From positions 1-64,000 of the forward strand of contig JALIBN010000003.1 in NCBI GenBank assembly GCA_030576275.1: a stretch of DNA of 64,000 nucleotides, given 5' to 3'. Made by a program: the position numbers and the translations under genes. Source of the stretch: Pseudomonadota bacterium. Its GTDB lineage: Bacteria; Pseudomonadota; Gammaproteobacteria; Nitrosococcales; Methylophagaceae. The first letter of the stretch is position 1; every line of letters begins with the position of its first letter. Below the pieces are notes generated by a model. The model was not told where the DNA came from. It was given only the letters and a program-made list of their open reading frames with translations, and made no database searches. Shown piece after piece: positions 7,905 to 53,083 of the stretch.

Positions 7905-8384
7905 ATGAGTCAAAAAGACAGTGAAGTAAACGATCCTATTTTGCAGTGGGTGACCTACCAGCTGGAAGATGAAACTTATGGCATTAATGTAATGCAGGTA
8001 CAAGAAGTACTGCGTATTACAGAAATCACACCTGTACCGGGAGCACCCAGTTATGTTTTAGGCATTATTAATTTACGCGGTAACGTAGTGACTGTTATTA
8101 ATACTCGCAGTCGATTCGGTTTAATGCCTAAAGAGAGTAATGATGATCAATCTAGAATTATTATCGTCGAAGTAAATGGCAATGTTATCGGTATGCTAGT
8201 TGATAGCGTCGCCGAAGTAGTTTACTTGCATCAATCGGAAATTGATTCTGTACCCATGGTCAATAATGACGACAGTTCACGCTTTATCCAAGGCGTATGT
8301 AGCAGAGAAGAACAGTTATTAATTTTAGTAGATGCCAATAAATTTTTAACTGAAGAAGAAGTCTCAGATTTCTCTGGGTTTTAG
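7905..8384 (+). CDS. cheW: Chemotaxis coupling protein CheW
   Basis: This canonical CheW of 159 residues shows WVTYQLEDETYGINVMQVQE at the start of the domain, then VPGAPSYVLGIINLRGNVV, and LVDSVAEVV with a later RFIQGV segment. It couples methyl-accepting receptors to CheA in the signalling array. A 96-base gap separates it from the ParP-like gene, the largest gap inside the operon, leaving room for an internal promoter, although none is obvious. An AAGG Shine-Dalgarno precedes the ATG. It is the second CheW-fold gene in a row, but only this one looks like a standard coupling protein. Confidence 0.95.
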   Translation: MSQKDSEVNDPILQWVTYQLEDETYGINVMQVQEVLRITEITPVPGAPSYVLGIINLRGNVVTVINTRSRFGLMPKESNDDQSRIIIVEVNGNVIGMLVDSVAEVVYLHQSEIDSVPMVNNDDSSRFIQGVCSREEQLLILVDANKFLTEEEVSDFSGF

Positions 8385-8395
8385 CACAATACGTA

Positions 8396-8581
8396 ATGGC
8401 TGACACGATTACACCCACTCAGCCACTGGCACCGACTTTACCAGTGACCGTACCACCAGAAGATAAACGTCGCGAGAAACAAAAAAAAACGCCAAATGAG
8501 AATGAGAGTGAGCAAGAACAAACAGACAGTAAAAACAACACAGAAAAGCCACGTAAAGGCCTATTTGATGAATATGTATAA
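8396..8581 (+). CDS. Small charged hypothetical protein after cheW
   Basis: This is a 61-residue open frame 11 bases after cheW and 18 before the DUF2802 gene, in the same direction, so it is probably translated as part of the operon. The product is low-complexity and probably disordered: Pro-rich at the start (PTQPLAPTLPVTVPPE), then Lys/Glu/Asn-rich, ending in a short hydrophobic tail GLFDEYV. No catalytic motif or membrane segment is present. I do not recognise a family. The operon position and intact frame are the main support; the tail could be a docking peptide, but that is a guess. Confidence 0.6.
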   Translation: MADTITPTQPLAPTLPVTVPPEDKRREKQKKTPNENESEQEQTDSKNNTEKPRKGLFDEYV

Positions 8582-8599
8582 CATTAAGGAGACAGAAAA

Positions 8600-8977
8600 A
8601 TGACTACACTTATTATTGTCATGGCAATCACTATCATCACACTGCTGGTCACTAATGCCTGCTACCGCTTATATAAACTAAACCAACAACAAACTGCAAA
8701 AATTGCCAGTTTACAAAATCAACTAGCGGTATTATGTGCTGGCGCCGTAGGTACAGATCAACGTATCATTCGGTTTGAACAAACCCTTCACCAAATAAAA
8801 GAACAACAACATACACTCGATCTTGGTATAAATAATCAGCAGGGTTATGACCATGCCATTCGTTTGGCCCGAAAAGGTGCTAGCATTAATCAACTGATTG
8901 ATAACTGTAATCTAAGTGATGAAGAAGCCCATCTCATTAGCCGTCTTCATAGTAGTGATCATCAGTCAATGCATTAA
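8600..8977 (+). CDS. DUF2802 family membrane-anchored protein
   Basis: This 125-residue protein has an N-terminal membrane segment (LIIVMAITIITLLVTNACY), a coiled-coil-like middle rich in Gln and Leu, and a conserved C-terminal part (YDHAIRLARKGASINQLIDN followed by LSDEEAHLISRLH) that resembles the DUF2802 family found after cheW in Pseudomonas-type clusters. Function is unknown; the C-terminal part looks like a small helix-turn-helix-type fold. An AAGGAG ribosome site precedes the start. It is the last gene of the chemotaxis operon and converges on the FlhB-like gene. Confidence 0.8.
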   Translation: MTTLIIVMAITIITLLVTNACYRLYKLNQQQTAKIASLQNQLAVLCAGAVGTDQRIIRFEQTLHQIKEQQHTLDLGINNQQGYDHAIRLARKGASINQLIDNCNLSDEEAHLISRLHSSDHQSMH

Positions 8978-9010
8978 AATTGATTGTCTTCTGTGAGATA
9001 GGGCTATGCC

Positions 9011-9292
9011 TTACTTTCTCTGTTTAATAACGGGTACTTTTCCTGAAATAATATAGGCATAAGCAATAACTTCAGCGACAACCCGATACAATAAGGGTGG
9101 AATTTCTTCACCTAGTTCTAATTCACTCAGCAATGCTGCCAACATCATATCTTCTTGTAACGGTACTCCGTGTTCTTTGGCGATACGAATAATTTCTTCT
9201 GCAATATCCCCCTCTCCTGATGCGGTGACTATAGGTGCATTTTCGCCATCATATTGCAGTGCAATAGCCTTTAATGGCTTATTTAAGCTCAT
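9011..9292 (-). CDS. Stand-alone FlhB C-terminal domain-like protein (FlhB2/FlhX type)
   Basis: The 93-residue product corresponds only to the cytoplasmic export-switch domain of FlhB/YscU: AIALQYDGENAPIVTASGEG, IAKEHGVPLQED and ELGEEIPPLLYRVVAEVIAY align with that domain in order. The membrane part and the NPTH autocleavage motif are absent. Such short FlhB paralogues occur in many flagellated proteobacteria and can partly replace the cleaved FlhB fragment. It overlaps the FliK-like gene by four bases, and FliK is the known trigger of the FlhB switch, so the pairing makes functional sense. Confidence 0.88.
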   Translation of the reverse strand: MSLNKPLKAIALQYDGENAPIVTASGEGDIAEEIIRIAKEHGVPLQEDMMLAALLSELELGEEIPPLLYRVVAEVIAYAYIISGKVPVIKQRK

Positions 9293-10905
9293 ACTGAAAT
9301 ATCCACGAATGAAGTTGCTTCTGCCTGATCTTGATTCTTTGCAAAGTTGTGCTTTACTTCATCACAGGTACAACTTATATGGCTAATCGACACATTTAGT
9401 TTTGCCAGCGTTGCATTTAACAATGGTATATTTTCTTCTAATAATTGTGCACTTTCAGCTCTTTCAGCTCTAATCACAACTTTGACATCTTGGCCATGCA
9501 AAGTAACATTGGCTTGTACTGCTCCTAAATTTTGAGTATCGAGGCAAAGTTTAACCTGCCAACTTTCATCATCATGTTCTGCCTGTTTTTTTTGCTGATC
9601 GATCTGCACCTGAAGGAAATCAACATTGTGCTTATCTTTAATAGGCAAATCAAATAACCAGCTGGCAGCCACATTACTTGCTTCAGGTTCTTTAAGCATG
9701 GATAGTTGATTGAATTGTAATTTTTTATGAACACTATCGACTTCTTTAAATAATGCCATCAACTCGGATAACTGCAAAGGTGCTTGCCGGCTAGCAGTCA
9801 CCATAGCTTGTTGCTGTTGAGAAAGTGATTTAGTCAATAATTGTATTAATGCCGTGGCTTGTTCTTGATTTGTGATAGCTGATAATACCGTTTGAGCCAC
9901 ACTATTTGGTGCAGGATTTTTCCCATACAATAAAACATTTAGTAACTGAGCAGGCGATTTACCCTGACTCAACAATGCCGATAGTACTTGTGCCGGCAGT
10001 TTATTGATAGGCTTGCCGTCTGACTGATTTTGTACCTGTGTAATAACCGCTTCTAAACTATTTAAGACTCTTGTGATATTTATCTTAAAATCCTGATTAA
10101 TTGCATTAGGCATTTTAAGTAACTTATTTTCTGTAAACACACCTGACGAAGATAATGCTTGTTTCAAGGCGTTCGTTTCCGTAACCGCAGATTTGTCTAA
10201 AGTATGTGCCACTAGTTGTTCAACGGCGGCTTGCACTGGAGTAGGTAATTGCTGTTTATTGACCGCAGTAAGCACTTTAGCTAAACGAGCCGGAGAAAGT
10301 GCTTGCGGTAGCATTCGTCGTAAGCTTTCAATAATAAGTTGTTCGCGTGATAGTGGTTGTTCTGGTCGTAATTGAATAGATAATGGCTTGATATTAACAA
10401 TATCCATCGTCAATTTATCACCGAGTTTGTAGGATTTTGAAAGTTGTGTGATATCGACATCAAACTGTTGAACTGCTGGCTTTATTTGTGACGAACTATT
10501 TGGCATAGCAGCTTGTACGAGTAGTCGGTTCTCAGCCAAAATCTTCACGACTTGTACCGCGATTTGTTGGCCCGCTTTTAAGTTTAATATTTCCGGTAAA
10601 CTTTTAGCCAAATTATCAAGTGCCATAGAGGCTTTTAGGCCCGGTGTTAAGGGAATGATTTTTAAGGCCAGTTTTCCTTGCTCAAGTACCACTTCAAGTT
10701 GTAACTTTTGGCCCGCCTGCAGATCAACCGGCGTGCGAATAGTCACTGAACTATCGGCTACTTTAATGGTGATAACTTCGCCAGCTACTGCTGGTTTAAC
10801 AACGGTTGATTCCAATCGCTGTCCGATCGCAATATCTGCTAATAATTTCTTAGGGATATCTTGAGTTAAACCGACAGAGCTTTGTACTGCTTGCTGAATA
10901 AACAC
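9289..10905 (-). CDS. Flagellar hook-length control protein FliK-like
   Basis: This long protein (538 residues) is rich in Gln, Ala, Leu and Ser with few aromatic residues in its middle, and has a C-terminal globular part (about 415-520) resembling the FliK hook-length domain (DDESWQVKLCLDTQNLGAVQ, then VTLHGQDVKVVIRAE). The N-terminal 170 residues contain two beta-rich segments. It probably measures hook or rod length and signals the FlhB switch. The start is a GTG without a convincing Shine-Dalgarno, so a start further in is possible. It lies back to back with the pentapeptide gene and is coupled to the FlhB-like gene. Confidence 0.75.
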   Translation of the reverse strand: MFIQQAVQSSVGLTQDIPKKLLADIAIGQRLESTVVKPAVAGEVITIKVADSSVTIRTPVDLQAGQKLQLEVVLEQGKLALKIIPLTPGLKASMALDNLAKSLPEILNLKAGQQIAVQVVKILAENRLLVQAAMPNSSSQIKPAVQQFDVDITQLSKSYKLGDKLTMDIVNIKPLSIQLRPEQPLSREQLIIESLRRMLPQALSPARLAKVLTAVNKQQLPTPVQAAVEQLVAHTLDKSAVTETNALKQALSSSGVFTENKLLKMPNAINQDFKINITRVLNSLEAVITQVQNQSDGKPINKLPAQVLSALLSQGKSPAQLLNVLLYGKNPAPNSVAQTVLSAITNQEQATALIQLLTKSLSQQQQAMVTASRQAPLQLSELMALFKEVDSVHKKLQFNQLSMLKEPEASNVAASWLFDLPIKDKHNVDFLQVQIDQQKKQAEHDDESWQVKLCLDTQNLGAVQANVTLHGQDVKVVIRAERAESAQLLEENIPLLNATLAKLNVSISHISCTCDEVKHNFAKNQDQAEATSFVDISV

Positions 10906-41401: not shown

Positions 41402-43039
41402 TCAGGATATTCCAGATCGTACGGTTGCGATATCGGGACTGACTTCTCGCCTTAATATTTTGCCATTTTTTGTTCTTGGAAAATCCTTAGTTAAATAGAC
41501 AACTTTTGGCGCTTTATAAACTGCAAGGTGCCTCTTACCAAAGGCCAATAACTCATCGGGTGTGACATTCATTCCGTCTTGAAGTACCACATATGCAACG
41601 ACTAAGTTTTTATCTTTTTCGATCTCTTCGCCTATTGCGGCACAATCTGCAATTGCTGGGTGAGATTTAAAGACACGCTCAATTTCATAGGGTGACACGC
41701 GGAATCCAAAACTTTTAATAATGTCGTCTTTTCTACCTAAAAACCAAATATAACCATCTTCATCGTACCTTGCAAAATCACCGGTAAGAAACCATCCGTC
41801 ATGTTTTAACTTTGCTGTTTCTTCAGGCATATTCCAATATTCAATAAACAAACCTGGGTCAGTATCAGGGACACAAATCATACCTTCTTGGCCAACTTCA
41901 ACTGATAGCAAGGAGTCTGGATCTAATAATTGAATATCGTGGCCAGGCTGAGGAAAGCCTGCTGATCCGGGACGAATAGGACGTGATTTTGTTTCACAAA
42001 GATAATATGAAAACTCCGACATACCAACAGCTTCATAAATACTGATATCAAAACGCTCTTGCCACAATTGTAAAACTTCATCGGATAGATGTTCACCAGC
42101 ACTCATACAATGCCTTAAGCTAGACACATCATTTTTTCTGTAAGCTGTTTTTTGAATAATTTGTCGGTAAATAGTGGGCACACCCACAAATATTGTTGCT
42201 TTATGTTTAGCGATTAAACGTGGCCAAGTATTAGCATCATTTTTACCCTCATGAACAATGACTGTTTTACCTAAATATAAGGGATCCATTAATCCAGAAC
42301 CTAATACGTAGGTCCAGTTAAACTTGCCAGAATGCATGATGCGGTCTTGGCTATCTTCAGCAAAATCGAACCAATACTGTGAGGCTGGAGTTCGCCCAAT
42401 CAATGCTCGGTGGGCATGTAAAACCCCTTTCGGATAACCTGTTGTACCCGAGGTATAGACTAAATATGCAGGATCATCAGCCTGTGTATTAGTGGCGGGT
42501 TGCCAGTCGGTTATTGATGCTAGACACTTGCTAAAATCTTTCACTATGACGTCATCATCAGCCTCGACTACATCGCCTGGACCTGATAACAAAACCAGTT
42601 TTAAATCAGGACAATGAGAAATATTCGGCAATAATTTTACCCACATTTCCTTGTCTATAACTAACACCTTAGCTTGTGAATCTTTAGCTAAGTAAAGTAC
42701 CTCTTCTACTGTTAATAAAGTAGAAGTTGGAACCGAAATAGCACCTAATTTCATTGCACCAAGAAAGGCAATTGGGTAGTCTAAACAATTAGGTAAACGT
42801 ATTAAAACGCGTTCACCAAATACAACATCAAGGTCACGTAACAATTGTGCAAATTGACTGGTTCGCTTTGATAATTCAGAAAAACTAATTTGATCTGTAC
42901 CTAACAGATCATCTTCAACAATCATTGCAGTTGTGTTTTCGATTTTTGTTCCAATATGGCGATCAGAACAGGCGACGCCGATATTAAAGTGACTTGGTAC
43001 GTCCCAAACCCAAGGGGTAAACGGTATTAAATTACTCAT
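41402..43039 (-). CDS. AMP-forming acyl-CoA synthetase (acid-CoA ligase)
   Basis: The ANL-superfamily adenylating enzyme (545 residues) has P-loop LVYTSGTTGYPKGVLHAHRA, EAVGMSEFSYYL, the hinge GWFLTGDFARYDEDGYIWFL-(GRKDD) and the catalytic Lys in PRTKNGKILRRE. Overall pattern is nearest to benzoate/2-aminobenzoate-CoA ligase-like enzymes rather than acetyl-CoA synthetase, but substrate cannot be read from sequence. As last gene of the GntR-malic enzyme-lyase operon, overlapping the lyase by four bases, it probably activates the acid that the cluster degrades. Confidence 0.88.
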   Translation of the reverse strand: MSNLIPFTPWVWDVPSHFNIGVACSDRHIGTKIENTTAMIVEDDLLGTDQISFSELSKRTSQFAQLLRDLDVVFGERVLIRLPNCLDYPIAFLGAMKLGAISVPTSTLLTVEEVLYLAKDSQAKVLVIDKEMWVKLLPNISHCPDLKLVLLSGPGDVVEADDDVIVKDFSKCLASITDWQPATNTQADDPAYLVYTSGTTGYPKGVLHAHRALIGRTPASQYWFDFAEDSQDRIMHSGKFNWTYVLGSGLMDPLYLGKTVIVHEGKNDANTWPRLIAKHKATIFVGVPTIYRQIIQKTAYRKNDVSSLRHCMSAGEHLSDEVLQLWQERFDISIYEAVGMSEFSYYLCETKSRPIRPGSAGFPQPGHDIQLLDPDSLLSVEVGQEGMICVPDTDPGLFIEYWNMPEETAKLKHDGWFLTGDFARYDEDGYIWFLGRKDDIIKSFGFRVSPYEIERVFKSHPAIADCAAIGEEIEKDKNLVVAYVVLQDGMNVTPDELLAFGKRHLAVYKAPKVVYLTKDFPRTKNGKILRREVSPDIATVRSGIS

Positions 43040-44193
43040 AATATTGCTCCATATGGCCAGTTCTCACGAACTACTTGGGCCGGCATTAACTGCATAACCT
43101 CCATAGCAAAACTTCGATCGTCATCATTTAAAGATTGTAAAGCATTGGCACGAAGTAACGTTTGTAATGCCTTACCGAACATGGGCGGGTCAAGCATTTC
43201 ACCGTCAAACTTTATCGCCCCACCCAATAGGGCATCTGCATCAATGGCAGCTTTCAGAATACTAATCTTTTGAGCAATTTCTGTTGGTGACGGTGTATAG
43301 GCAACTTTACATAAATGTATATGGCTAGGATGAATAACTTGCTTGCCGGTGAGTCCCATTGCGGTCTCTTCACAGGCATGCTTATAAACAACACGTGACT
43401 CCTCTTCTCCATGAAGATCTAACCATCGTCTAACATCATTGGGTTCTATAAATTTTTCTGGCATGCTTGATGAACCTATTAAGGTTTCAACACCGCCGAT
43501 AACTCCCTTACCAGCAATTCGCGCTTCAAACATGATTTGGTATAAGAAGTATTTAAGCTCTTCTGTCCAATGTTCAGGGGTAATGTGAATACCCATAGCT
43601 TTAGAAAAGTCGTGGATCCCAAATACAACATGTTTAACGGTGGAATATTGCATCAAGTCAGGGGCGATTTTGAGCGATTTAGGGTGCTCAATAATCGGTT
43701 GAATGGTTATTTTATTGTTCATACCGACAAGCAAATTTGAGAGATCTCTTACCTCTGCCGCACCATAAGCTTCACCCGCTTTCGATAACATTACAACATC
43801 AATACAGTCAGCCATATCACTAACCAATTGCATATCAAGTTCATATTCACGAGTACGAAATGGATTAACTCTTATTGCAATCGTCACTTTTTTATTATAT
43901 TGACGAAGTTCAGCTAATTCTTGACGCAATAAAGTTCGACTCATTTCTTTTTGACGACAACCATCTTCTAAATCAAAAATTAAAGTATGAGCTTGTGTCT
44001 CATAGGCATGTCTTTTCAGACGTAAAGCTGCGGCCTCTATGTCTTCATATATACCTTGTTGAGGTGAATATTTGACCGGAGGATAATAGAGCTGAATCCC
44101 AGGCCAATGGTCGCCTAATACACTTGAGTTAAACACTCGGCAAAAATCGACATCGGCATATGGTTCAGCGTAGGAATTGTTTCTATTTTCCAT
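43036..44193 (-). CDS. HpcH/HpaI-family CoA-ester lyase-like protein (CitE-related, long form)
   Basis: I place the start at ATG 44193 (MENRN), which has AGAGGG seven bases upstream; the track's earlier start lacks this. The TIM barrel has the metal and substrate motifs FDLEDGCRQKEMSR, IIEHPKSLKI and VFGIHDFSKAMG, with KQVIHPSHI late in the barrel. It carries about 50 extra N-terminal residues and a long C-terminal part, making it about 385 residues, against about 290-320 for CitE and malyl-CoA lyase. A reaction on a CoA ester (cleavage or hydrolysis) is likely; substrate unknown. Confidence 0.75.
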   Translation of the reverse strand: MENRNNSYAEPYADVDFCRVFNSSVLGDHWPGIQLYYPPVKYSPQQGIYEDIEAAALRLKRHAYETQAHTLIFDLEDGCRQKEMSRTLLRQELAELRQYNKKVTIAIRVNPFRTREYELDMQLVSDMADCIDVVMLSKAGEAYGAAEVRDLSNLLVGMNNKITIQPIIEHPKSLKIAPDLMQYSTVKHVVFGIHDFSKAMGIHITPEHWTEELKYFLYQIMFEARIAGKGVIGGVETLIGSSSMPEKFIEPNDVRRWLDLHGEEESRVVYKHACEETAMGLTGKQVIHPSHIHLCKVAYTPSPTEIAQKISILKAAIDADALLGGAIKFDGEMLDPPMFGKALQTLLRANALQSLNDDDRSFAMEVMQLMPAQVVRENWPYGAIL

Positions 44194-44282
44194 ATTTTTA
44201 CCCTCTTTATCTCTATGTTGGTCATAGCTATTTTTCAATCTGCAGAACCTGAATAATTACGAAACCTTGTTACTACAGTTGT

Positions 44283-45497
44283 CTAGTCGTCACGCGCGGC
44301 TTGTTCAACAGCGCTCGATACTCTGTTCAATAATCTTGGATCAAAAGGTTTAGGAATAATGTATGATTTCCCAAAACTCAATTCATCAAGATTGTAAGCG
44401 GCCAAAACATCTTCAGGGATAGGCTCACGCGCCAACTTAGCTAAAGCATGAACCGCCGCAATTTGCATTTTTTGAGTAATTTGAGTTGCCTGCGCATCCA
44501 AAGCACCACGAAATAGATAAGGAAAACATAATGCATTATTCACTTGGTTTGGAAAGTCAGAACGTCCTGTTGCCATAATTAAATCGTCACGAATAGCATG
44601 TGCAAGCTCTGGGAGTATTTCTGGATCTGGATTTGCCAAAGCGAAAACTACAGGATTTGTAGCCATAGACTTTAATAATTCAGCATCTAAGGTATTAGCA
44701 GCAGAAACCCCAATAAATACATCAGCACCTATCATCGCATCGGCAAGCGTTCGCTTCGGGGTATCTCTTACTAGGTCTTCCACCTCTTGATGAATATCAG
44801 TTCGTTCATCATGTATTACACCTTTGCGATTAACCATAGTGATATTGGTTGCCCCCATGGCACGTAACATTCTTGCCGTTGCCACACCCGCGGCACCAGC
44901 GCCAAGAAAGACGATCTCTACGACTGTAAGATCTTTATTTTGTAATTCAAGTGCATTTAGCAAGGCCGCACAAATAATTACTGCGGTGCCATGTTGATCA
45001 TCGTGAAATACAGGAATATTTAATCGTTCACGCAGTTCGCGTTCTATTCTAAAGCAATGAGGCGCAGCAATATCTTCTAGGTTTATTCCGCCAAATGTCG
45101 GTGAAATATTAACCACGGTTTCAATAAAGCTTTCAATTGAAGGTGCGGTCACTTCAATATCAAATACATCAATATTGGCAAACTGTTTAAATAATACTGC
45201 TTTACCTTCCATCACCGGTTTGCTAGCCAATGACCCCACATTACCTAAACCTAACACGGCCGTTCCATCGGTTATAACAGCCACTAAATTACCTTTATTG
45301 GTATATTTATACGCATTACGAGGATCAGCTTCGATCTCTTTAACTGGCACAGCGACACCTGGTGTATATGCAAGAGAAAGGTCATCCGCGGTAACACAAG
45401 GTTTTGTGGATTCAACCGACAATTTTCCAGGTCGGGGAAACTGATGATAATTGAGTGCCCTTGTTTTCAAATCTTGATACTGTTCTGGACTATTCAC
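44283..45497 (-). CDS. Malic enzyme (short, without phosphotransacetylase domain)
   Basis: This 404-residue protein is a complete malic-enzyme core: YTPGVAVPVKEI, TDGTAVLGLGNVGSLASKPV, metal and substrate motif NLEDIAAPHCF, FHDDQHGTA and nucleotide-binding VFLGAGAAGVATARML. It decarboxylates malate to pyruvate with NAD or NADP. The C-terminal Pta-like domain of MaeB is absent. It lies three bases after the GntR gene, so it shares its regulation; in this context it would drain C4 acids made by the cluster to pyruvate. Confidence 0.93.
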   Translation of the reverse strand: MNSPEQYQDLKTRALNYHQFPRPGKLSVESTKPCVTADDLSLAYTPGVAVPVKEIEADPRNAYKYTNKGNLVAVITDGTAVLGLGNVGSLASKPVMEGKAVLFKQFANIDVFDIEVTAPSIESFIETVVNISPTFGGINLEDIAAPHCFRIERELRERLNIPVFHDDQHGTAVIICAALLNALELQNKDLTVVEIVFLGAGAAGVATARMLRAMGATNITMVNRKGVIHDERTDIHQEVEDLVRDTPKRTLADAMIGADVFIGVSAANTLDAELLKSMATNPVVFALANPDPEILPELAHAIRDDLIMATGRSDFPNQVNNALCFPYLFRGALDAQATQITQKMQIAAVHALAKLAREPIPEDVLAAYNLDELSFGKSYIIPKPFDPRLLNRVSSAVEQAARDD

Positions 45498-45500
45498 AAT

Positions 45501-46235
45501 TTACTCCAAAGAATTCATATAATGTTGTTCATCAGTAACACACAAGCCTAAACGCCATTCCATTGGTTTATCTCCATAGGTATAAGCAACTCGTTCGATA
45601 CTAAGCAAAGGAAATCCAGGCTCTATATTAAGAAGCTCTGCTTGTTGTTTTGTGGCCATAACTGCGGATAATTTTTCTTCTGCCCTTACCATTGGTACGC
45701 CATACAAAGTTTCATACATACTATAAAGTGAACCGTTATTCTCTTTGATTTTGGTCGCATTCAGTCCCTTGAATGATTTGGCTTGGACGATGATGTAGTC
45801 AAGAATGACTGGCCGTTGCGAAAAGGTAAGTAATCGTTTGATCTCAATAATAGCTGTGCCAATTTTCAAACCAGTTAACTTTGCAATTTCTGCATTTACT
45901 TTTATACGGTTACATTCAAGTAATTCGTTTTCGAGTAGTTCTTTACTGCCATCGGCAGACGTTAATCTTAAAAAACGTAACTTGCTGTTTTGTTCTTTAT
46001 GGGTTGATACAAAGGTACCTTTGCCTTGGCGACGTACAACAATATTTTCTTTCGCCAACGCGTCAATCGCTTTTCTCACCGTACCTTGACTAACCCCATA
46101 GCGTGCGGCTAAGTCCATTTCACTAGGAATACTTTCTCCAGGTTTCCACTCACCAGCAATAAGACTATCGGTCAGCACAGACTTAATTTGTTCATAAAGA
46201 GGTCTAAACACCAACGTGCTATTCATGTTGCTCAT
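45501..46235 (-). CDS. GntR-family (HutC/UTRA subfamily) transcriptional regulator
   Basis: The N-terminal winged helix (IPSEMDLAARYGVSQGTVRK, RRQGKGTFV) and C-terminal UTRA ligand domain (GTAIIEIKRLLTFSQRPVIL, SLYSMYETLYGVPMVRAEEK) define the HutC type. I prefer ATG 46235 (MSNMNST), which has AAGGAAAG just upstream, over the track's 46268. It is first in the leftward operon with malic enzyme, lyase and CoA ligase, and lies next to palindromic sites upstream of both arms of the cluster, so it probably controls both and itself. Confidence 0.9.
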   Translation of the reverse strand: MSNMNSTLVFRPLYEQIKSVLTDSLIAGEWKPGESIPSEMDLAARYGVSQGTVRKAIDALAKENIVVRRQGKGTFVSTHKEQNSKLRFLRLTSADGSKELLENELLECNRIKVNAEIAKLTGLKIGTAIIEIKRLLTFSQRPVILDYIIVQAKSFKGLNATKIKENNGSLYSMYETLYGVPMVRAEEKLSAVMATKQQAELLNIEPGFPLLSIERVAYTYGDKPMEWRLGLCVTDEQHYMNSLE

Positions 46236-46285
46236 ACTCTTTCCTTGGTTTTTTACTTTAGTAACCATCTTATCTCATCACCACA

Positions 46286-46299
46286 GTCTTATATAAGAC
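46286..46299. promoter_or_regulatory. Palindromic operator O1, upstream of the GntR gene
   Basis: GTCTTATATAAGAC is a perfect 14-base palindrome, 50 bases before the preferred GntR start and next to a TATAGT on the minus strand that could be its -10 element. A near-identical copy lies at 46438. Symmetry and spacing fit autoregulation by the HutC-type protein. Confidence 0.7.
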
Positions 46300-46437: not shown

Positions 46438-46451
46438 ATCTTATATAAGAC
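46438..46451. promoter_or_regulatory. Palindromic operator O2, upstream of the rightward operon
   Basis: ATCTTATATAAGAC differs from the O1 palindrome at one of 14 bases and sits 12 bases before the -35 box of the rightward promoter. The extended symmetry (TATCTTATATAAGACATA) is similar. The two copies, about 150 bases apart, mark both arms of the divergent cluster. Confidence 0.7.
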
Positions 46452-46543: not shown

Positions 46544-47425
46544 ATGAACGACTATTTTCGACCACGCCGCTCCATGCTTTATATACCTGGCTGCAATCAA
46601 CACTATCTTGAAAAAGCGCTGACTATGAATGTTGATTCAGTTATTTTAGATTTAGGAGCCCCAATCTTGCTCTCTGCAAAGGAGACTTCTCGTAAAAATG
46701 TGGTTGAAGCACTAAAAAAAGGAGGGCTAGCTCCTCGCGAGGTAGTGGTAAGAGTCAACGACCTTGATTCAAAATGGGGATATGACGATGTAAATGCCAT
46801 AGCAAATCTTAGTGCCGATGCCATTCTATTTTCAAATATCGAAAATCACGACGATGTAATGAAAGCACTCAAAGCATTGGATGATGCCGGTAATTCTGAT
46901 ATCCCGATTATGGTAATGATCGAGAGCCCACTGGCTGTACTTCACGCCGAAGAAATTGCAAAATCTTCCGATCGTATTGCTTGTATGATTATGGCGACAT
47001 CGGACCTTATTTCAGATTTGCATGCACGTCCGACCTATGAACGTACTGCAATCTTAGCTAGCTTATCACTTGTTGTGCTTGCTGCTCGTGCTTATGGTAG
47101 AGCTGTTGTTGATGGCATTCACAGTGATCTTAAAGATATGCAAGCGTTTGAATACGCGTGTCGTATTGGTCGAGACATGGGCTTTGATGGAAAGTCACTC
47201 GTTCATCCCTTCCAATTACCTTATGCAAATGAAGCATACACACCAAAACCAGCAGAAGTTGAATCTGCTAAAGAAATTATTGCGGCATTGAGCGCAGCAA
47301 ACGCAGCAGGAAGAGGCACGGTGTTAGTGAACGGACGATTGGTAGAGCATCACCATGTTACGGCAGCAAAACGCTTCTTAGAACTCAGTGAGATGATTAA
47401 TAAAATGGGTATCGATAATGACTAA
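46544..47425 (+). CDS. CitE/HpcH-family protein with altered acidic motif
   Basis: The 293-residue TIM-barrel protein begins RPRRSMLYIPGCNQHYLEKA as in CitE/citramalyl-CoA lyases, and retains IMVMIESPLAVLHAEEI and GKSLVHPFQLPYANEAYTP. The usual DLEDAV motif, however, reads DSVILDLGAPILLSAKETSR, so the adjacent Glu-Asp pair is missing, and the loop holding the second metal Asp is MATSDLISDL in place of GTNDL. Catalytic ability or substrate may therefore differ. It is first in the rightward operon and overlaps the hydratase by eight bases. Confidence 0.75.
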   Translation: MNDYFRPRRSMLYIPGCNQHYLEKALTMNVDSVILDLGAPILLSAKETSRKNVVEALKKGGLAPREVVVRVNDLDSKWGYDDVNAIANLSADAILFSNIENHDDVMKALKALDDAGNSDIPIMVMIESPLAVLHAEEIAKSSDRIACMIMATSDLISDLHARPTYERTAILASLSLVVLAARAYGRAVVDGIHSDLKDMQAFEYACRIGRDMGFDGKSLVHPFQLPYANEAYTPKPAEVESAKEIIAALSAANAAGRGTVLVNGRLVEHHHVTAAKRFLELSEMINKMGIDND

Positions 47426-48512
47426 ATTAACTACTAACCACAACCGATATTTCGAAGATTTCGAACTCGGCGAAACAATATTACATGCAACTCCTCGCAC
47501 CATTACTGAAGGAGATGCATCGCTCTATATTGGCTTAACGGGTTCTAGGCATATTCTTCATTGTGCACAGCCTGTTGCTCATTCACTTGGTTACGAAGAC
47601 AAAACCATTGATGACCTGTTGGCCTTTCATATTGCCTTTGGCAAAACGGTACCTGACATATCGGTGAATGCAGTCGCCAATCTTGGTTATGCTGAAATCA
47701 CATTCGATCATCCAATTTATGCTGGCGATACGCTTACAACAAGCTCAACCGTTATTGGCGTTAAAGAAAACTCCACTAAACGTAATGGTATAGTCTATGT
47801 CCGATCAACTGCGTTAAATCAAAATCATAAACAAGTCTTATCTTGGGTACGTTGGGTAATGATACATAAACGCGATTTTGATGCGCCAGCACCTAAAACG
47901 GTTATTCCAGAATTATCACAATTTGTAACGGCTGAAAATTTGCCTGTATTTAGTCATTTAGATGCCAAATATTTTGATATCACAACCACAGGTTCAGCCA
48001 AGTTGTGGGACGACTATGTAGCAGGTGAACGTATTAATCATCCTGCAGGTATGACAGTTGATGATAGCGACCACACACTGGCCACTAAACTTTACCAGAA
48101 CAATGCCAAACTTCATTTCGATGACTTAATGATGAAATCGACCAGCTTTGGTCGAAGATTGATGTATGGCGGACATGTTATTTCAATTTGTCGTGCACTC
48201 AGTTACGAAGGTCTTGAAAATGCGATCTCAATTGCCGCTATCAATTCCGGTACACACAGCAATCCAAGTTTTGGTGGCGACACCTTCTATTGTTGGACTG
48301 AAGTCCTAGAAAAGTGGACATTACCAAAACGTAACGATATAGGTGCATTGCGCCTACGTATGGTTGGCATAAAAAATCAAACTGCTGACAGTCTAGCGAG
48401 CACCAAAATCATTGTAGATAACAAAAAACAATGTCATCCCAATGTAGTGCTCGACCTTGACTACACGGTACTGATACCTCGCAGATCAAATCAAGATAAG
48501 GAATTACTATGA
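47418..48512 (+). CDS. MaoC-type double hot-dog hydratase, resembling mesaconyl-CoA hydratase
   Basis: The 364-residue protein has two hot-dog domains (about 1-165 and 190-350). The opening RYFEDFELGETILHATPRTI and FGKTVPDISVNAVANLGYAE, then SWVRWVMIHKRD, resemble mesaconyl-C1-CoA hydratase/beta-methylmalyl-CoA dehydratase (Mcd/Mch) of Rhodobacter and Chloroflexus from memory of that family. Such enzymes interconvert mesaconyl-CoA and beta-methylmalyl-CoA. The gene overlaps both neighbours (8 and 4 bases), which are lyase-family proteins, as expected for this chemistry. Subfamily assignment is moderate; a different branched enoyl-CoA is possible. Confidence 0.7.
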   Translation: MTKLTTNHNRYFEDFELGETILHATPRTITEGDASLYIGLTGSRHILHCAQPVAHSLGYEDKTIDDLLAFHIAFGKTVPDISVNAVANLGYAEITFDHPIYAGDTLTTSSTVIGVKENSTKRNGIVYVRSTALNQNHKQVLSWVRWVMIHKRDFDAPAPKTVIPELSQFVTAENLPVFSHLDAKYFDITTTGSAKLWDDYVAGERINHPAGMTVDDSDHTLATKLYQNNAKLHFDDLMMKSTSFGRRLMYGGHVISICRALSYEGLENAISIAAINSGTHSNPSFGGDTFYCWTEVLEKWTLPKRNDIGALRLRMVGIKNQTADSLASTKIIVDNKKQCHPNVVLDLDYTVLIPRRSNQDKELL

Positions 48513-49513
48513 CAAATTTAACTCATCCTAGCGATGCACTATTTGATGGCGAACGCTCATTTCCGATAATTCCTAGTTGTGAACACTTTGCGGGAAGCGA
48601 AAAACTGATCCTGAAGGCACTTTCATTACAAGATTCACTGGGTCCTATTTTCGATATCACCTGTGATTGTGAAGATGGTGCTGCCGCAGGCACGGAACGT
48701 GAACATGCCGCAATGATTGTACGGATCCTGACCTCAGAAGCCAATAAGCACAAAATGGCAGGAACCCGGATCCATGACTTTAGTCACAGTGCTTGGAGAC
48801 AAGATGTCGATATATTGGTCGGTGGCGCCGGTAATATACTCAGCTATATCACCATACCTAAAGCGACTAAAGTAGCACAAGTTTCCGAAATGATTGGCTA
48901 TATTCAATATGTTGCTAAACAAAATGGCATCACTAGAACAATCCCAATACATGTCCTTATAGAAACACATGGTGCCTTACATGATGCCTATGAGATCGCG
49001 GGATTACCTTGGATGCAGGTACTAGACTTTGGTTTAATGGATTTCGTTAGTGCACATAATGGAGCTATTCCAGCGAGTGCCATGCGAAGTCCAGGACAAT
49101 TTGAACATAAGTTATTAGCAAGAGCTAAAGCCGAAGTGGTCTCTGCGGCTCTTGCCAATGGCGTAGTGCCAGCACATAACGTAACCTTGGACTTAAAAAA
49201 TACCGAGGTTACTTATGCAGATGCCGCACAGGCTCGCAATGACTTTGGGTTTTTAAGAATGTGGAGCATTTACCCAACCCAAATTTCTGCAATTGTCGAT
49301 GCTATGAAACCGAATTACAGCGAAGTGATTGATGCTTGTAATATCCTATTGGCCGCACAACAAGCGGATTGGGGACCACTACAATATGAAGGTGAGCTCC
49401 ATGACCGAGCAACCTATCGTTATTTCTGGCAATTATTACAACAAGCTCAGAAAACAGGTATTGAATTACCAGAACAAGCTCAAAAAGCTTTTTTCTCTGG
49501 GGATCAATCATGA
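48509..49513 (+). CDS. HpcH/HpaI-family aldolase/CoA-ester lyase (third paralogue)
   Basis: This TIM-barrel lyase of 334 residues has the motif [30 protein letters not shown] with the metal-binding Glu, [20 protein letters not shown] with the Asp, and [16 protein letters not shown] near the end. Its motifs differ from those of the two other paralogues in the cluster, so it is not a recent duplicate. It is translationally coupled to both the hydratase and prpB by four-base overlaps. Beta-methylmalyl-CoA or malyl-CoA cleavage would fit the neighbours; this is inference. Confidence 0.75.
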
Positions 49514-50397
49514 GCAAGATACTATCTGCTGGAGCAAAATTTAGACTAGCTGTATTAGATGAACAACCTTTGCAAGTCATGGGCGCGATCAATGCCTATC
49601 ATGCTCGCCTTGCCACTCAGGTTGGTTACAAAGCCTTATATATTTCTGGCGGTGGTGTCGCCGCTGGTTCATTAGGCATACCTGACCTAGGAATCACCAC
49701 ACTTGATGATGTGTTAACGGATGTGCAGCGGATAACTAATGTTACCGATCTGCCCGTATTAGTTGATATTGACACTGGATTTGGCGGTGCTTTTAATATT
49801 GCCCGAACTATCAAATCAATGATTAAAGCAGGTGCCGCAGCCGTTCATATCGAAGACCAAGTTCAAGAAAAACGTTGTGGCCACAGACCGAATAAAGCCA
49901 TCGTCAGCCAATCTGAAATGGTGGATCGCATTAAAGCCGCCGTAGATGCTAGAACCGATGATGATTTTGTCATTATGGCTCGAACTGATGCACTTGCAGT
50001 AGAAGGTTTACAGTCAGCAATTGATCGCGCCAGTGCTTGTGTAGAAGCTGGTGCTGACATGATATTTCCTGAAGCAATAACTGATTTAGCTATGTATCGT
50101 CAGTTTGCACAGGCAGTTAAGGTTCCCGTGCTTGCCAATATCACTGAATTTGGCACTACTCCGCTCTTTACGGTTGAACAATTAGCGCAATATGAGGTGG
50201 GCTTAGTGCTATATCCCTTAACGGCTTTCCGGGCGATGAATCAGGCCGCGTTAAAAGTTTATCAATCCGTTCGTGAACATGGCACACAACAACATGTCAT
50301 CGAACTGATGCAATCGCGTAACGAGCTCTATGACTATCTCGATTACCACAGCTATGAACAAAAATTAGATCAATTATTTTCTGCTGAAAAAAAGTAA
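49510..50397 (+). CDS. prpB: 2-methylisocitrate lyase
   Basis: The 295-residue protein aligns end to end with Prp[36 protein letters not shown], the catalytic Cys loop [41 protein letters not shown] and [12 protein letters not shown]. It cleaves 2-methylisocitrate to pyruvate and succinate, the last step of the methylcitrate cycle. It overlaps the upstream lyase-family gene by four bases (ATGA), so it belongs to the same transcript as the hydratase and lyases. Confidence 0.97.
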
Positions 50398-50445: not shown

Positions 50446-51585
50446 ATGACTGAAGTTAAAAAGAAAAAAGGCGTGACCCTCGCCGGTATTGCTGCCGGCA
50501 CAACAGCGGTTTGTACCGTTGGTCATAGCGGTAATGACTTACATTACCGTGGTTATGACATATTAGAACTAGCATCCAAAGCCACGTTTGAAGAAGTAGC
50601 TCATTTACTAATTTATGGTGAGCTTCCTACTCAGGATCAATTGACTAATTATCATAAAAAATTAAAACAGCTTCGTAGTCTGCCTGTTGCTCTAAAAACC
50701 ATCCTCGAAAATTTACCATCAAATGCACATCCTATGGATGTAATGCGCACAGCCTGTTCAGCACTGGGTACGATTGAACTAGAGGATCAAAGCCATTCAA
50801 TTGAAGGTGCTCAACATATTGCAGATCGTTTGATTGCTTGTTTTGGTTCTGTTTTATTGTATTGGTATCACTTTAGTCAAAATGGCAAACGCATTGAATT
50901 AGAAACTGATGATGATTCAATCGCAGCCCATTTCTTACATCTACTTCATGGTGAGGCACCTTCAGCGTTACATATTGAGGCGATGAATGAATCACTAGTG
51001 TTATATGCCGAACATGAATTCAACGCTTCTACATTTTCAGCGCGTGTCATCGCCGGCACCTTATCTGATATTTACTCTGCCATCACCGGCGCAATCGGTG
51101 CTTTAAGTGGACCAAAACATGGTGGTGCAAATGAAGCTGCCATGGAAATAATTCAACGCTACGCATCACCAGATGATGCAGAAAAAGACATTATGCAGCG
51201 CATCGCCAACAAAGAAATAATTATTGGTTTTGGTCATCCTGTTTATACTATTTCTGATCCTCGTAATGTTGCTATTAAAGAGGTTTCTCGCCGCTTATGT
51301 GAAGCGGGTGGCAATATTAACTTATTCAATATTTCAGAAAGAATTGAACAAGTTATGTGGCGCGAGAAAAAGATGTTTCCTAATCTTGATTGGTACAGCG
51401 CTTCCAGTTACCACATGATGGGAATACCGACTAGTTTCTTCACGCCAATCTTTGTTATTTCGCGCATTACTGGATGGGCGGCTCACATCATTGAACAGCG
51501 TATTGATAATAAGATTATTAGGCCTAATGCAGATTATATAGGCCCTGAAGAAAGACCATTTATTCATTTAAAAGCACGTTCTTAA
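50446..51585 (+). CDS. prpC: 2-methylcitrate synthase
   Basis: This is a type II citrate-synthase-fold protein of 379 residues with [17 protein letters not shown] near the start, [14 protein letters not shown], the catalytic residues in [14 protein letters not shown] (His) and [14 protein letters not shown] (His), and the C-terminal [14 protein letters not shown]. The opening and the short length agree with PrpC rather than GltA. It condenses propionyl-CoA with oxaloacetate. A GAGAGGA ribosome site precedes the start. Clear placement between prpB and prpD. Confidence 0.97.
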
Positions 51586-51622: not shown

Positions 51623-53083
51623 ATGTCATCCCATATTCCTAAGGTTTCTCATGCGCCTGATCAAGTACTCGTAGACATTGCAGATTATGTTCACGATTAC
51701 TTAATTACCAGCCCTGAAGCTTTAGATACTGCTCGCTATTGTTTGATGGATACACTTGGTTGCGGTCTAGAAGCACTCTCTTATCCTGCCTGTACAAAGT
51801 TACTGGGACCCGTTGTTACTGGTACTATTGTTCCTAACGGCAGTAAAGTACCTGGCACATCATTTCAGCTTGATCCAATTCTTGCAGCTTTTAATATTGG
51901 CGCAATGGTTCGTTGGCTAGATTTTAATGATACTTGGCTAGCTGCTGAATGGGGCCATCCATCAGATAATCTAGGCGGAATTCTTGCTGTCAGTGATTGG
52001 ATTTCTCGTACTCGCGAACAAGCCGGTAAAAAACCAATTTCAATGCGCGAAGTACTTGTTGCCATGATTAAAGCGCATGAAATTCAAGGCGTTTTAGCAT
52101 TAGAAAATAGCTTTAATCGTGTTGGCTTAGATCATGTTGTGTTGGTGAAAGTTGCCTCAACAGCCGTCGTAACGGGCCTACTTGGTGGTACTAAAGAAGA
52201 TATCATCAATGCAGTATCAAATGCTTGGATAGATGGACAAAGTTTGCGTACTTATCGCCATAGCCCAAATACTGGTTCTCGTAAATCATGGGCTGCCGGT
52301 GATGCTACAAGTCGTGCGGTACGCATTGCATTAATGACCATGAAAGGTGAGATGGGCTACCCATCAGCACTGACTGCAAAAACATGGGGATTTTATGACG
52401 TGCTATTTAAGGGCCAGCCGTTTAAATTTCAACGTGACTACGGGAGTTATGTAATGGAAAATGTACTTTTTAAAATTTCGTTTCCGGCCGAATTTCATGC
52501 TCAAACGGCTGTTGAAAGTGCAATTTTGCTTCACAATGAAATTGGTTCGCGTATCCAGACATTAGATGATATTGCTCTAATCGACAAAATAGAAATTACG
52601 ACTCATGAATCTGCTCTGCGAATTATCGATAAACAAGGACCATTAACAAATCCTGCTGATCGAGATCACTGTATCCAATACATGGCTGCCATCGGGCTTT
52701 TAAAAGGACAACTTACTGCCGCGGATTATGAAGATGATATTGCTGCCGATCCTAGGATTGATGCATTAAGAGATAAAATACACTGCGTTGAAAATGAATC
52801 ATATACTGCAGATTATTTAAACCCTGATAAACGATCGATTGCCAATGCATTACAAGTCATTTTTACTGATGGAACGAGTTCTGAAAACATTGCTGTTGAA
52901 TATCCAATTGGTCACAGACGTCGCCGTAAAGAAGGTATTCCTGAACTCGTTAAAAAATTCAAAATCAATTTAGCACGTCGTTTTCCAGCGAAGCAACAAC
53001 AACAAATTTTGGATGTATGTATGAATGAAGCACAGCTGTGTGCAATGCCTGCTCATGAGTTTGTAGATCAATTTGTGATTTAG
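51623..53083 (+). CDS. prpD: 2-methylcitrate dehydratase
   Basis: The 486-residue MmgE/PrpD-family protein matches PrpD closely: [77 protein letters not shown] and [20 protein letters not shown]. It dehydrates 2-methylcitrate toward 2-methylaconitate. There is no acnD-prpF pair, so the PrpD type of cycle, finished by aconitase, is used. It is the last gene of the operon, followed by a strong terminator. Confidence 0.97.

Follow-up and report, generated by a model that had tools for sequence, protein, structure and literature searches.

A CitE-like protein from a methylotroph gene block is a probable pseudoenzyme of malyl-CoA thioesterase ancestry

The window, i.e. the whole stretch of 64,000 nucleotides that was analysed, encodes a degenerate CitE-like protein of the malyl-CoA thioesterase (Mcl2) type, CitE1 (46544..47425, + strand, 293 aa), identified from its open reading frame, the PF03328 profile, alignment, tree and predicted model. 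CitE1 is probably a pseudoenzyme of Mcl2-type ancestry that has kept its fold and serves as a non-catalytic partner in a mesaconyl-CoA/beta-methylmalyl-CoA module, with the adjacent MaoC hydratase as the likeliest partner. This reading draws on sequence comparison, which shows residue losses, the ancestry of the protein, a conserved gene block, purifying selection and two intact further lyases, CitE2 and CitE3. The host is a marine bacterium feeding on methanol and related to Methylophaga, and the loci closest to the block in the window are those of Methylophaga thiooxydans DMS010 and other Methylophaga.

Inspection of the open reading frame and its translation confirmed what a sequence-only reading had reported for 46544-47425, namely the motifs DLGAPI, MIESP and a late HP (here VHP), with DLGAPI (codons GAT TTA GGA GCC CCA ATC) replacing the DLED of the superfamily. 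In malyl-CoA lyases, the Mg ligands are one Glu and one Asp, the Glu-Asp pair of DLED hydrogen-bonds both Mg waters, an Arg is catalytic, and the acid/base is an Asp from the lid of the neighbouring subunit (PMC3832036). Zarzycki and Kerfeld (2013) described the Glu-Asp pair, Mg ligands, Arg and lid acid as conserved across the CitE-like superfamily and the malate synthases, the sole exception being the malyl-CoA thioesterase group, in which the lid Asp is replaced by Glu (PMC3832036). The pair that holds the Mg-bound waters in catalytic members is absent from CitE1, where codons 38-39 (GGA GCC, 46655..46660, + strand) encode Gly38-Ala39, as judged from the codons, the alignment and the published role of the pair (PMC3832036). 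Neither of the findings that could have undone this observation was obtained: the alignment is gap-free at the motif and there is no acid between D36 and the conserved K46-E47 that could compensate, and DLGAP was not encountered in any enzyme that is intact or characterised. Sequencing error as the source of DLGAPI was rejected because orthologues also carry Gly in place of Glu, loci L034-L040, which are of the Methylophaga type, reading DLGA and L041 reading DLGD.

The Mg-binding Glu and Asp and the catalytic Arg are all present in CitE1 of the window, but they are not kept across the clade. Arg70 (46751..46753, + strand), the equivalent of the catalytic Arg76 of Rhodobacter sphaeroides malyl-CoA lyase by alignment and PMC3832036, is Gly in L058/G122. 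The Mg ligand Glu127 of MIESP (46922..46924, + strand; alignment, PMC3832036) is Ala in L048, L049 and L052 and Asp in L090 and L134, and the second Mg ligand Asp154 (47003..47005, + strand; alignment) is Asn in L060, L086, L090 and L134 and Glu in L052. The lid acid, Glu268 (47345..47347, + strand; alignment, PMC3832036), is Gln in L060 and L090; as Glu for Asp is the mark of the malyl-CoA thioesterase group, CitE1 is placed with that group. Two further aligned positions differ from intact relatives, Asn98 (46835..46837, + strand), which is Lys in 32/33 of them, and Ala151 (46994..46996, + strand), which is Gly in all 33.

The loss of the Glu of DLED extends to 25/25 CitE1-type proteins compared. 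All 23 close orthologues (61-89% identity), which come from Methylophaga, Methylophilaceae, Gallionellaceae-like and other beta-proteobacterial metagenome-assembled genomes (MAGs), carry Gly at this position. Both acids are lost only in Methylophaga and one Gallionellaceae-like MAG (DLGS); most beta-proteobacterial orthologues, like L041, retain the Asp (DLGD), which L049 and the remaining Methylophaga no longer have. In the alignment, 33/33 intact-type relatives keep D36, E38, D39, R70, E127, G151, D154 and E268, and E38, K98, G151 and W123 are absent in 14/14 degenerate representatives, the missing Lys, Gly and Trp being near-invariant in the 33 intact relatives. Losses of a different kind mark three block lineages further removed from the window: L058/G122 reads DLHRS and has Arg replaced by Gly; L060/G145 and L086/G268 read DLHES, with Asp changed to Asn and a lid Gln; L090/G307 (YELHEA) and L134/G807 (YDLHEA) have Asp in place of Glu, Asn in place of Asp and a lid Gln. 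Catalytic residue losses are lineage-specific and present in 14/14 degenerate representatives.

CitE1 has nevertheless retained the architecture of its superfamily. The PF03328 profile matches it at 4.8e-40, and structure prediction gave a confident model (mean pLDDT 93.4, pTM 0.90) with the CitE/MCL fold, CLYBL (2.6e-23) and malyl-CoA lyases being among its Foldseek matches; both the family profile and the TIM-barrel fold with a lid place the protein in the CitE-like superfamily (HpcH/HpaI aldolase/citrate lyase). The dN/dS of CitE1 against L034 is 0.070, with values of 0.019-0.079 for eight neighbouring genes, and CitE1 is under strong purifying selection. Selection maintains both the gene and its fold although orthologues have lost catalytic residues, and selection together with lineage-specific catalytic loss is what a pseudoenzyme retained for binding would show.

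The gene stands in a block that reads, on the minus strand, CoA ligase, CitE3, malic enzyme and GntR, and on the plus strand, CitE1, MaoC, CitE2, PrpB, PrpC and PrpD. The minus-strand genes encode an AMP-forming acyl-CoA ligase (41402..43039), which overlaps CitE3 (43036..44238), an intact CitE-like lyase by alignment (DLEDGC, Arg, Glu, Asp, lid Asp), followed by malic enzyme (44283..45497) and a divergent GntR/UTRA (HutC-like) regulator (45501..46268). On the plus strand, MaoC (47418..48512), which matches the beta-methylmalyl-CoA dehydratase 8hgn at 3e-111, starts 8 bases inside the end of CitE1, overlapping its stop; CitE2 (48509..49513) is an intact CitE-like lyase by alignment (DCED, Arg, Glu, Asp, lid Asp), close to PDB 3qqw (match 3.5e-154); and PrpB methylisocitrate lyase (49510..50397), PrpC 2-methylcitrate synthase (50446..51585) and PrpD 2-methylcitrate dehydratase (51623..53083) follow. 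CitE1, MaoC, CitE2 and PrpB overlap successively by 4-8 bases. A perfect palindrome, TCTTATATAAGA, is confined within the window to two copies in the gap between GntR and CitE1 (46287..46298 and 46439..46450, strand-neutral, the second copy 93 bases 5' of CitE1), and the exact sequence lies upstream of CitE1 in 21/23 gamma- and beta-proteobacterial block loci, so that each copy is a candidate operator and likely the site of GntR. Overlapping genes and the common palindrome point to the block being one regulated unit.

CitE2 and CitE3 carry the full catalytic set in every block examined, except that one CitE2, that of L086, is interrupted by a frame break ahead of its motif. The malic enzyme and prpBCD are the variable parts of the conserved block: Gallionellaceae-type loci keep the core without prp, and the G122, G145, G268 and G307 lineages have ligase, CitE3, CitE1, MaoC and CitE2 together in different gene orders, CitE1 and CitE2 not sharing one operon in every block. 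Succinate dehydrogenase genes lie within the cluster in L046 and L053. In the association sample of 49 genomes, with CitE2 and CitE3 called at E at most 1e-60, CitE2, CitE3 and MaoC were present in 14/14 genomes with degenerate CitE1; among genomes with intact CitE1, CitE2 and CitE3 occurred in 0/26 and MaoC in 11/26. Fisher's exact test on this association gave 4e-11, which is not a true probability because the genomes are related, and the genes of the block may co-occur for metabolic reasons alone. Four Methylophaga-family genomes that have no CitE1 carry a relative of CitE2 (53-55%), and in the block-less Methylophaga-family genomes L063 and L064 a CitE2 relative (52-55%; ~8150-9800) adjoins PEP synthase and its regulator. 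The literature search on this module in Methylophaga, or on a CitE pseudoenzyme, returned nothing relevant except an OM43 transcriptome paper, in which dissolved organic matter raises the expression, in strain NB0046, of prpBCD and of two genes that bear consecutive locus tags and encode a CitE-like protein and a CoA ligase (PMC5120137). We assume that these two genes, NB46_00666 and NB46_00665, are the CoA ligase and CitE3 of the block (41402-44238).

Phylogenetic analysis with the active-site columns excluded placed degenerate CitE1 in a 59-row group of CoA ester lyases of putative Mcl2 type (support 100/97). Mcl2 is represented in this group by TM1040_RS03035 of Ruegeria, which we take to be the orthologue of the R. 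sphaeroides protein, its neighbourhood (sucC-mdh-lyase-MaoC-sdh) presumably matching that of R. sphaeroides Mcl2. Descent of CitE1 from an Mcl2-type protein is indicated by the sequences. An intact relative, L057/G071, nests inside the degenerate clade (98/91, 95/84), yet a single clade is not rejected (AU p 0.158), implying one to three losses; this relative lies directly 5' of prpB-prpC-prpD in a genome without CitE2, CitE3 or MaoC of the block type. Among 29 intact-type loci (L104-L132) that a search retrieved from elsewhere in the phylum, MaoC lies within 1.5 kb of the lyase in 16, which suggests that the pairing of Mcl2 with the hydratase is old. The MaoC homologues beside intact Mcl2-type lyases are ~50% alike to that of the window and are homologues of mesaconyl-CoA hydratase. 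One block, in a Methylophilaceae MAG (L042:131-1009), encodes proteins 71-85% identical to those of Methylophaga, and its CitE1 clusters with the Methylophaga sequences, which suggests that genes passed between methylotrophs of the gamma- and beta-proteobacteria, unless the MAG was wrongly binned.

From these features we infer a loss of activity, a partner role and a substrate. CitE1 would lack the active-site framework for metal-dependent acyl-CoA chemistry; it would be co-transcribed and translationally coupled with its neighbours and might play a structural role or sense or hold a CoA ester. Its constant adjacency to MaoC and the 8-bp overlap point to this protein rather than CitE2 as the partner, and as the pairing is also frequent in intact Mcl2-type loci, the hydratase would be the first candidate and CitE2 the second. 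Judging from the protein families, the CoA ligase would activate a C4/C5 acid, e.g. mesaconate, MaoC would interconvert mesaconyl-CoA and beta-methylmalyl-CoA, CitE2 would cleave beta-methylmalyl-CoA into propionyl-CoA and glyoxylate, and PrpCDB would convert propionyl-CoA and oxaloacetate into pyruvate and succinate through the methylcitrate cycle, with CitE3 acting on a second hydroxyacyl-CoA. A bolder version, which we advance tentatively and find somewhat doubtful, is that the conserved clade of CitE-fold pseudoenzymes supplies mesaconyl-CoA hydratase with a regulatory or scaffold subunit that it cannot do without. The hydratase would belong to an undescribed C5-acid module found in methylotrophs and iron oxidisers, and the clade would have given up catalysis one to three times, in each case in the company of two other lyases.

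The sequence-only reading had offered changed chemistry, a hydrolase role or a non-catalytic partnership with the third lyase. The partnership has become the best supported of the three, because the catalytic residues that disappear under purifying selection vary from lineage to lineage and CitE2 and CitE3 are intact, although CitE2, the third gene, is less favoured as the partner than MaoC. A hydrolase role accords with the ancestry of the protein, the lid Glu being shared with the malyl-CoA thioesterase group (PMC3832036), but residues kept by those relatives are now lost. As CitE1 of the window retains a larger share of the active site than the sister lineages do, the main rival is weak thioesterase activity in Methylophaga: CitE1 could still convert malyl-CoA to malate and CoA, perhaps more slowly, relying on Arg70, both Mg ligands and the lid Glu even though the Glu-Asp pair no longer clamps the waters. 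Retention of Arg70, Glu127, Asp154 and Glu268 may permit weak Mg binding and some activity, PF01274 malate synthase was not found in G000 or the other Methylophaga block genomes searched, and a malic enzyme lies in the divergent operon. We nevertheless regard continued thioesterase activity as unlikely, given that L048, L049 and L052, which are ~68% identical and share the gene order, carry Ala at the position of the Mg ligand Glu127, that other blocks have lost Arg, Asp or the lid acid, and that Lys98, Gly151 and Trp123 are gone too.

Changed chemistry could take the form of a catalysis that needs no metal and acts on one of the module's CoA esters, e.g. a CoA shift from one carboxyl of mesaconate to the other (C1 and C4). 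Strong purifying selection, the searched Methylophaga block genomes, none of which has a CaiB/BaiF protein that could perform this step, and the existence of residues invariant in the degenerate clade and not in its relatives are compatible with such catalysis; we judge it improbable, as these residues are mostly hydrophobic or scattered, the alignment revealed no new polar residue set common to the clade that would replace the lost ones, the lost polar residues differ by lineage, and the CoA ligase could provide the required isomer. Even less probable is a heteromeric lyase in which CitE1 assembles with CitE2 or CitE3 into mixed trimers or hexamers and lends its lid to a neighbour's active site. 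In malyl-CoA lyase, the lid does close the site of the neighbouring subunit and supply the catalytic acid (PMC3832036), and CitE1 is always found with CitE2 and CitE3, but two block lineages (L060/L086 and L090/L134) have Gln instead of the lid acid, CitE1 is only distantly alike to the two lyases, and it does not form one operon with CitE2 in every block. Finally, progressive loss of catalytic residues could signify a decaying thioesterase remnant without current function. Gene decay was rejected on the dN/dS of 0.07, and with 23/23 close orthologue frames intact and CitE1 identity exceeding MaoC identity in every comparison made, we consider it highly improbable.

The pseudoenzyme reading bears on the superfamily as a whole: the lost residues are described as conserved in all CitE-like enzymes and malate synthases, and a selected, block-associated clade without them would be a pseudoenzyme branch of the superfamily. 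Such a clade would also flag a module whose catalytic members are testable. The block provides a genetic and functional context for CitE2-type proteins known only as structures, the putative citrate lyases PDB 3qqw and 3r4i from Ralstonia and Burkholderia, for which the records consulted give no function and which are the closest solved relatives of CitE2, not of CitE1.

Among known systems, CLYBL, CitE and RipC/Ccl share superfamily and fold with CitE1 but keep the Glu-Asp pair. Identity as a true CitE, RipC/Ccl or haloarchaeal MCL was rejected because CitE1 scores far under curated cut-offs, including those of the citE and RipC models (187.5 bits against 443.4 for the citE equivalog), and there is no citD or citF among the operon genes; the case is a warning against automatic annotation as citrate lyase or malyl-CoA lyase. 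With the malyl-CoA lyases (PDB 4l9y, 4l7z, 5ugr), CitE1 has in common the fold (Foldseek TM ~0.84), the C-terminal lid and the equivalent catalytic positions, whereas its identity is ~28%, its catalytic set is incomplete and it has 293 residues as opposed to 339-348. The Mcl2 group of R. sphaeroides and relatives is where its closest intact relatives (38-49% identity) probably cluster. CitE1 differs from this group in the absence of the Glu-Asp clamp, Lys98, Gly151 and Trp123, and its sister lineages in the absence of Mg ligands, Arg or lid acid, but it shares with the group the lid Glu in place of Asp and a place near mesaconyl-CoA hydratase, beside which intact members are often found.
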